A stretch of DNA of 43,300 nt from a virus: the IMG/VR virus record IMGVR_UViG_3300049043_000362, positions 1 through 43,300 of that record; one strand, given 5' to 3'. Below are positions 1 through 13,140 of this stretch, piece after piece (within the stretch, counting starts at the first letter, position 1; every line of letters starts with the position of its first letter). Made by a program: the position numbers and the translations under genes. The notes beneath the pieces were generated by a model that saw only the letters and a list, made by a program, of their open reading frames with translations, was not told where the DNA came from and did not search any database.

Positions 1-503
1 GCGCACCGTTTCGTCCTGCACCATCAGCGGCGAGGCGCCGGCGGTCGTCAGGTAGGTGTAGGCGGCTTCGGCATCATCTGGCGACGCTTTGGCGAACGCA
101 TCGTGCACTCGCTTGGCCACTCGGTCGACCTCGGCAATGCGGCCAAGCGTCTGGTAGCGGCGCTCAAGGTAAGACTTGTAGCCGGGCAGGGAACCCAGCG
201 GGTCGAGGACCGCATCCGACCCGAGCCAGGAAGTCGCGCGCGGTCTGCCGGTAGCCGCGGCGCACGGCGGTTTGCTGGTTGGCGGCAGCCTGGGCAGGGT
301 TGCGGTTGAAAACCGCTGACGTCTGGGAGGCCCGGAAGCGGCTTCACTCCGAATGCCTTTCGCGCCCAAGCGTTCACTTCGCTCGCGTGCTGCGCGAGTG
401 CTTGCTGCTCGGAGGGCGTCAGCATCTCGGAAGCCGATGAGGTATCGGGCTTCGGCATGAGTGAGGGCTTCGGGTCGAGTGTGGAAGATTCGTTCGATGA
501 CAT
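1..503 (-). CDS. Start of a large phage protein, cut by the left window edge
   Basis: The start is ATG at 503, preceded by AAAAGGAGG at good spacing. The product opens with a Ser/Pro-rich stretch, then MLTPSEQQALAQHASEVNAW. Two frame changes, near 300 and near 225, are needed before a clearly coding stretch resumes (LPGYKSYLERRYQTLGRI, then AAYTYLTTAGASPL), which runs off the edge. The first part overlaps, in another frame, the end of the phosphoribosyltransferase domain of the upstream gene, so the two genes overlap by at least about 100 bases unless further indels are hidden here. Function is unknown. Its position after the DarB-like genes makes a virion or co-injected protein likely, but that is inference. 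Confidence 0.6.
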
Positions 504-10900: not shown

Positions 10901-13140
10901 TTGCTCCGGTGGTGCGGTTCCCGGCCGCAATCTGGCTTCGTTGATGCCAGTCTGAAGATTGACGCGAATTTCCAGTCCGGGCGGGAGTGCGGCGCCGTCC
11001 GGCACACGCTGCCATTCGGCGGTGGGCACGAAATCCGGCACGCTGGAGCGCGATGCGCCCGGCGGCAGGCGCGGGCGGCGGCGGCGCGGCCGGCGGCACG
11101 GCCGCCTCGCCGGACAGCAGCCCGTCGGTGTCGGTCGGGATCTCCGGCCGGTTTGCGGCGGCGGCGCCTGCCATGCCGCGCAAGCCCGCGCGCGCAGCGG
11201 CGCACCAGTGTGCCGTCGCCCGGCTGGGGTGCCAGGGCGCGCGCGAACGCGCTGGCGGTGTGCGGCATCCCGACGGCGGCGCCCGTCACGGCGCCAATGA
11301 TGCCCGCCTCCTTGACGCCCTCATCCCACGGGATCTGCTCGCCCAGAATGAAGCGTTTGGACAGATTCTGACCAATCTGGGCGACGATTTCCTCGATGCC
11401 GCCGGTGGCTTCGATGCGCAGCGGTGGCCGCCACGCCGACACCGGCCGCGCGCAACAGCCGCCCCACAAAACCAGCGCGATCCAGCGAAAGTCATGCCAG
11501 CCATGGCGGCGCGCACCTTGCCGAAAACGGCCAGCGGCAGCATTTCCGACAACACCTCGATGCCGCCCTCGACCCACGATTCCACCATGGCCAGATCGGC
11601 GCGCTGCGCGTGCTGCTGCATGTTGTCGCGGAACTGCCCGCCGGCCGCGGAGGCGCCCATGCCCAGCAGGTACGTATTGGCCAGCAGGCGCGGCCCCAGC
11701 GCGGCCGTGAACATCGCCGCAATTCGAGGCGCCTGCGCGGTCACGTGCTCGCCCAGCCAATCAGCCACCTCGCCGGCGCCCTTGAGGTCATCCCATTTCT
11801 TGCTGCCGATCTTCGACAGCGGGTTGCGATACCCGGTGCGCTCGAACGGTTCGGCGCCAACGCCGGACACGGCCGGAAACTGGTAGCTGGAACCTGCCGC
11901 CTTGAGGATCGGGTTGGCGACGTAGTAGTTGAAGGTGGTCGGCAACAGCCCGGTCACAAACTCGGTCAGCCCGCCGCCCAGCTGCGCCGCTCCGCGCGCC
12001 AGCGCGGGCGCGACGTACATGCCGGCGTTCGCCATTGCTTGATTTCGCTGGCGCGCCAGCCAGTCCTGCAGCGTAGGCTGAAACTCGCCGGGCTTGGCCA
12101 GCGGCACCGGAGAGCTCCGGTCGACGCCGTCCTCCATGTCCCGGCGGATGCTGAAGCGGATCTCGTCGACCCCCAGCATGGGGTAATTCTTGCGGTACTC
12201 GGCCATGCGCTGGTCGAGCGTGCGCTTGGGCCCGGCTTGGGTTGTGGCGGCGGCGCCTCGGGCGTCATCGCCGACTCGACCGCGGCCACCTCGCCCATGG
12301 CCGCCGGAGAATCGGCGGCGGCCACGATGCCGCGCGCCATCACGCCGGGCTGGCCGCGCAACTGATCGACGCCGGCCGCGCCGAGCCCGCGCGCGGCCCA
12401 TGCGGCCATCGAATCGCCCTGGCGCGACATCGGCGCCACCCGGCCCGGCGCGTTGCGCTGCGCCTCGATGGCGGCGTCCGCGCCCGGGCCGTCCATGACC
12501 GACTCGGGCGTCTTGCCCATGATGCCGTCGCGCGCCCATTGGTAGGCCCCCGTGGCCACGCCGGCAACGACGTTGCCCGCGTCAACGGCGGCGCCCTTGA
12601 CGGCCTTGACAGCCGTCTCGGTCATGCTTGGCGGCCGGGTGGCGGCGTCGAACTGATCGAAGGCGGCGCGCAAATCTTCGGTGGCCACGCGGGGCGCCAC
12701 GACATCGCGGAAATACTGGATCCGGGCTGCTTTCTGTTCGTCGGGCGACAGCGCCTGGTACGCTTTTGACGCAGCCACCTCTTTCCAGGGTTTGGCCTTG
12801 GCTGCCGACGCATCGGGCGGCGCGCCCGGGCTCATGCCCCTGGTCTTGATGTCCTGCAAAGGGCATCGCGCTCCTGCTCAAGCGTGGCGCGCGCTGTCGG
12901 GTTTTTTTCGTCGCGGATCGTGCGTTCGAGCTCGGCCAGGTTTTCCGGTGTGCGGTTGAAGGCCTGATCGGCGGCGCGCTCTTCGGGCGTCAGGTCGGCC
13001 TGGCGGGCGATCCTGGCTTCGGTCGATGTCTGGCGGTCGCGCGTCGGCCCGGTTTTTTCGTCGCCTTGATTGACGACAACGGTGCCGCGACGCGCTGCAT
13101 TGACGACCGAATCCGGATCCCATTCCATTGGAGCGCCCAT
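7913..13140 (-). CDS. Giant DdrB-like virion protein with ParB-like and barnase/EndoU/colicin-type nuclease domains
   Basis: About 1,740 residues, with frame changes near 12860, 12240, 11450, 11050, 10345, 9830, 9650, 9060, 8640 and others. ATG 13140 has GGGGAGG upstream and abuts the TAA of the gene before it. The N-terminus is charged and helical. About 12240-11300 is hydrophobic and Ala/Gly-rich, possibly membrane-interacting. About 10780-9960 matches the ddrB-type ParB-like domain (REIPVQYAAVEADQLLASN, then VAGNGRAAALKLAYAQG). A Lys/Ala coiled coil lies near 8930-9060. About 8440-8050 resembles the phage barnase/EndoU/colicin/RelE-like nuclease module (GLKHIELRHGEQI, FVADVATNFSAIYQ, ADQFKNKEPLWERA). 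The family assignments are from remembered motifs. The end near 7913 is inferred from the next start at 7925. An injected DNA-protection or host-takeover protein is likely. Confidence 0.7.

Follow-up and report, generated by a model that had tools for sequence, protein, structure and literature searches.

Phages and plasmids encode polyvalent proteins, in which disparate enzyme domains, ParB, RadC, zincin (an HExxxH form included) and phosphoribosyltransferase (PRTase) among them, are joined in one polypeptide; in the 2017 survey of such proteins RadC occurred only in those of conjugative elements and DdrB-ParB only in those of phages (Iyer et al., PMC5512222). Among the closest known systems are P1 DarB and JC1 gp69, the latter of Bcep22 type, each a giant virion protein that carries a methylase followed by an SNF2-type helicase. 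P1 DarB is characterized by its protection of injected DNA from type I restriction, and P1 DdrB by a ParB domain and a zincin that may process the protein. P1 Dar proteins are co-ejected with the DNA (PMC12810830), and mass spectrometry of purified JC1 virions identified the DarB-like gp69 by 51 unique peptides (PMC9144972). The mechanism of DarB is still undefined, and plasmid-borne darB alleviated restriction without the protein (PMC11109961); plasmid-based darB tests can mislead. A further giant, N4 vRNAP (~3,500 residues), is ejected and forms an ejectosome (PMC12633501).

The window, meaning the whole stretch of DNA analyzed here (43,300 nucleotides; record IMGVR_UViG_3300049043_000362), is a whole linear virus sequence of 43.3 kb with 65% G+C, and its modelled coding path lies on the minus strand. 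A sequence-only reading had proposed that it encodes DarB/DdrB-like multi-domain proteins, and the ParB, helicase, methylase, RadC/JAB, zincin and PRTase modules named there were recovered, with virion genes adjoining:

1-13140, minus strand: giant polyvalent-protein gene, with ATG at 13140-13138 closely preceded by GGAGG; coding reaches the low contig end with no stop in the record, and many frame breaks
9526-10807, minus strand: ddrB-like ParB domain with a conserved C-terminal extension (PF18763, 8.3e-13 in an uncorrected piece; 33-51% identity to relatives L014, L022 and L037)
8450-8933, minus strand: M2, a small conserved domain ahead of the helicase, shared with L037, L019, L022 and L002
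5740-7938, minus strand: SF2 helicase, SNF2/Strawberry-notch-like, from profiles and relatives (Walker A 7366-7389, DEAH 7114-7125)
5200-5740, minus strand: gamma-class N6-adenine DNA methylase (TPEP; EPSAG 5482-5508; NPPY 5320-5331)
4027-4224, minus strand: RadC/JAB domain (PF04002, 5.4e-9, over cut-off)
3252-3443, minus strand: zincin-like metallopeptidase motif HELMGH at 3285-3302, from the motif and the flanks in relatives
1549-2896, minus strand: M1, a conserved unnamed module, tentatively GNAT-like, from alignments collinear with L014 and L037 and a structural model
599-913, minus strand: phosphoribosyltransferase-type domain with a VVVDDVSTMGGT PRPP motif (phrog_22413, 2.7e-29; Pfam 1.5e-4, below cut-off)
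13144-36234, minus strand: virion module adjoining the giant gene, from PHROG matches, as are the five genes that follow
16796-17698, minus strand: internal virion protein
20063-20761, minus strand: tail collar fibre
24983-25483, minus strand: major head protein
30719-33601, minus strand: portal
34744-36234, minus strand: terminase large subunit

Across most of the coding sequence, the portal, head and terminase genes included, a frame-tracking codon model shows a reading frame that changes every few hundred bases; within the helicase domain the window shifts frame near 6455 and at ~6001 (6000/6002), and relatives are unbroken at both points. Because the breaks run through the whole of the 43 kb record, structural genes included, the simplest reading is that they are sequence errors and not biology, i.e. 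that the record is an indel-rich assembly resembling uncorrected long-read-type data and not a set of decayed genes, and gene calls made on it are therefore not trustworthy. For this reason pieces were searched each in its own frame, with no base inserted or deleted, and the architecture was read from intact relatives; an all-against-all BLAST of the pieces with relaxed statistics was left out as mostly noise.

In uncorrected pieces the helicase was matched by ResIII/SF2 (8.5e-11) and SNF2 (2.5e-4) profiles and the methylase by the MTS profile (3.3e-4, under its cut-off), and PHROG profiles of giant phage proteins matched window pieces at 8e-139 and 8e-100. The motifs NGTGTGKT (Walker A), DEAH, EPSAGHGAL and NPPY lie exactly where the sequence-only reading had placed them, on the minus strand (no strand had been named). 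NGTGTGKT, DEAH and EPSAG are each unique across the six frames of the 43.3 kb; NPPY-like motifs number seven there, and the copy at 5320-5331 sits in the methylase that matches relatives, at 45-57%. No near relatives in phages were found by nucleotide search. At the protein level helicase and methylase match Ruegeria phage 45A6, Pseudomonas phage Skulduggery, Serratia phage Parlo, Klebsiella phage ZX1 and two Vibrio phages, and this pair, catalytic motifs included, is conserved better than any other part of the family; when IMG/VR was scanned with the family profile, at least 459 of 600 stretches were confirmed, and the 80 best of them were retained. Relatives such as 45A6, Skulduggery, Parlo and many IMG/VR contigs are annotated 'DarB-like'.

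The architecture of this family is nevertheless distinct from that of DarB. The helicase precedes the methylase in the window and in all 65 of the retrieved giants that have the two motifs, near-duplicates counted, whereas in P1 DarB and JC1 gp69 the methylase comes first. The methylases are homologous (family profile, hhalign probability 97.9, E 3.9e-13); the comparison of the helicase with that of P1/JC1 DarB, in contrast, gave a probability of 20.6 (E 0.0011), with an alignment confined to motifs V-VI. Since the helicase comes first and a clear relationship to DarB is confined to the methylase, the window protein, judged by domain order and profile comparison, is neither DarB nor Bcep22-type in architecture, and its helicase-first family is a reversed version of the helicase-methylase dyad, possibly assembled independently. 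The Bcep22-like counterpart invoked in the sequence-only reading exists in JC1 gp69, and is found in virions (PMC9144972), but its domain order differs. Among the helicase-first giants, those of 45A6 (ANH49087.1, 3,912 aa), Skulduggery (YP_010655400.1, 3,695 aa), Parlo and ZX1, together with PHROGs 10691 and 5143, share the helicase-methylase order with the window at 38-50% identity, and in phrog_5143 a ParB stretch precedes the helicase, as in the window. The giants of the four phages are single ORFs in virion-gene context, and the giant gene of JC1 also lies among virion genes. Unlike the window, 45A6 and Skulduggery have by profile no RadC, ddrB-ParB or PRTase, and carry GNAT, LPD38/LPD39 or SLT instead. 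Disparate domains in one polypeptide (from profiles on pieces and intact L014 and L037) and a phage gene beside virion genes (terminase, portal, head and tail proteins are matched on the strand of the giant) would make the window giant a member of the known polyvalent class; its reversed dyad order and domain mix were not found reported.

The sequence-only reading had divided the coding region between two adjacent genes. The single-ORF relatives L014 (4,892 aa) and L037 (>3,534 aa) are however collinear with window 10807-1549, sharing in the same order ParB with its extension, M2 (in L037 only of these two), helicase, methylase and M1, and on the strength of these intact ORFs 10807-1549 is read as one gene, not two. 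The gene upstream stops directly before 13140, the sole credible gene start with both ribosome-binding site and ATG; the other RBS-like site, at 503, falls within the PRTase reading. Coding seems to extend to base 1 in the frame-tracking model, and from this continuity we infer that 13140-10807 and 1549-1 also belong to the giant gene. Beyond M1, L014 continues for ~1,200 residues, ending in LPD38, and the window has 1.5 kb left after M1; as L014 is so much longer there, the giant gene is probably cut off by the low end of the contig. The earlier estimate of ~4,200 codons fits 300-13140, but the gene would continue past it. The last 75 codons match nothing, and no relatives were returned when the ParB, ParB-extension, C-terminal and PRTase pieces were each run as single proteins against IMG/VR.

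Of 47 relatives, 13 have the ddrB-type ParB domain, which P1 DdrB also carries, within the same ORF. M2, helical by eye, has no Pfam match and no nuclease by profile. M1 is widespread, with at least 533 of 600 IMG/VR stretches confirmed, and has no Pfam name in two intact relatives scanned in full. Its final model, built from 65 sequences, has a mean pLDDT of 83 (a first model from nine sequences, pLDDT 66, was dropped as too poor); it matches solved structures weakly, with a best E of 0.027 and low TM-scores, and the top matches are mostly GNAT acetyltransferases, as they were for the first model with its smaller alignment. On these model comparisons M1 is tentatively GNAT-like, an assignment that could equally well prove right or wrong.

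What lies between methylase and M1 varies: the window has RadC and a zincin there, L037 has PBECR1, and in 45A6 a GNAT domain follows the methylase. The RadC metal motif reads RNHPSG...SPAD, with Arg at the first metal-ligand His in this error-rich sequence. The zincin gave no profile match on the window pieces scanned; its motif, with similar flanks (VYLV/I...HE..GH.G), recurs in relatives L002, L010 and L011. A barnase/EndoU/colicin-like nuclease module had been claimed for the window, and PBECR1/2 profiles and Pfam scans of the pieces found no such nuclease there; PBECR1 is present in relative L037. Nor is ADP-ribose handling supported, the window having no ART match (L003, weakly, and L073 have one). 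Apart from this module and the gene count, most of the domains and motif positions first described were upheld. RadC and ddrB-ParB also occur together in L073, in one open frame of 5,708 aa on a contig with a portal match (9e-8); in L064 RadC is matched too, under the cut-off. By these profile matches, RadC in ParB-bearing phage giants (the window and L073) contradicts the 2017 survey (PMC5512222). A solo RadC gene (219-aa frame, G028:27455-27817) was seen on the contig of phage L035, which encodes in addition a helicase-first giant with ParB. In L073 (IMGVR_UViG_3300016484_000665) a 2H phosphoesterase-type domain (aa 495-589, 53.5 bits) lies upstream of ddrB-ParB in the same ORF; it also passes the cut-off of PF23474, the profile of the anti-CBASS protein Acb1, was seen in one of 47 relatives, and would make a virion-delivered anti-CBASS activity possible.

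RadC and zincin fall within the span collinear with L014 and L037, and the PRTase falls outside it. The PRPP-binding transferase of the sequence-only reading is borne out by the VVVDDVSTMGGT motif with its DD and by the phage PRTase family match, and the piece is 35% identical to a protein of Moraxella Mcat8 whose gene comes directly after the portal gene. As none of 47 relatives has a PRTase by profile, its place in the giant depends on coding continuity; it is likely part of the same polypeptide.

The domains and their order, the continuous frame in relatives and the virion-gene neighbourhood are observed; packaging, ejection, methylation, self-cleavage, antirestriction and every host effect proposed here we infer, delivery by analogy with JC1 gp69, the P1 Dar proteins and N4 vRNAP. 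The reading preferred, at a probability of roughly 0.6, is that of a single giant polyvalent protein, delivered by the virion as a self-processed DNA-protection kit. The giant would be made with the late virion genes of a short-tailed-phage-type genome, be packaged in the head and leave it together with the DNA; in the cell the ATP-driven SF2 motor and the adenine methylase would then work in cis on the incoming DNA, blocking restriction. The HExxGH zincin may cleave the chain into functional parts, and the targets of the RadC, ParB, GNAT-like and PRTase modules may be nucleic acids, nucleotides or host factors. The homology of the methylase to that of P1 DarB and the N-terminal lysozyme-type domain of several relatives speak for this reading. 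Counted against it are the undefined DarB mechanism with the plasmid-borne darB result, the Arg-for-His change in RadC, the sequence errors, which mask the intactness of domains, and the window's want of a lysozyme-type domain: SLT or glucosaminidase is N-terminal in several relatives, and none was found in the window's giant-gene pieces. A literature search found no virion proteomics for the window phage or any helicase-first relative.

The same neighbourhood could suit a mainly structural ejection protein, a chain that forms or loads an ejectosome, with the enzyme domains as secondary passengers that act on the host and not on restriction. The giant gene follows internal virion and tail genes, the giant ejected vRNAP makes the N4 ejectosome (PMC12633501), and the C-terminal LPD38 region is conserved with no known enzyme activity; yet it is the helicase and methylase, catalytic motifs included, that the family conserves best, and this alternative is considered unlikely. 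Less probable again is late expression with action in the producing cell, where progeny DNA would be methylated before packaging and little or nothing delivered. An adenine methylase core encoded among late genes is what such a scheme calls for, but solo methylases would be enough for it, the JC1 counterpart is present in virions (PMC9144972), and the SLT fusion in relatives suggests a role at entry.

Slightly more improbable even than this is that what was read as one kit is a set of at least two genes, or a decayed gene of a prophage. There is no long open frame, a second RBS-like site lies at 503, and the PRTase is missing from all the relatives tested; on the other hand the structural genes are broken too, frames recover midway through conserved domains, and with L014 and L037 covering 10807-1549 as single ORFs separate genes are possible mainly for the PRTase end (1-1549).

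Beyond the DNA-protection kit itself, a broader and more speculative reading, which we hold to be somewhat less probable than its opposite, is that the helicase-methylase pair arose at least twice, in opposite orders and with different motor families, so that the coupling itself would have been selected; that M1 is a new GNAT-fold acetyltransferase-like effector delivered with the DNA; and that RadC, zincin, PBECR and GNAT cassettes have been swapped between methylase and M1. The GenBank label 'DarB-like antirestriction' hides a second architecture, reversed in order and probably driven by another motor, and, if both orders protect incoming DNA, the two families would offer a clean comparison of methylase-translocase coupling. 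The present analysis also exposes phage giants that pair RadC with ParB, against the 2017 survey, an exchangeable stretch, and the unnamed conserved M1, whose function is testable in the culturable phages Skulduggery, Parlo and 45A6.

Among the giants compared, JC1 gp69 (L009; aa 941-1098) and the L004 giant (aa 1036-1193) share a segment of 158 residues that is 64% identical, the other matching parts being far more diverged, which suggests a recent domain exchange between a methylase-first and a helicase-first giant. A 57.7 kb plasmid record of Comamonas thiooxydans (PLSDB NZ_CP083940.1), probably a phage-plasmid, encodes a relative that is annotated as an LPD38 domain-containing protein and shows 47% identity across the helicase.
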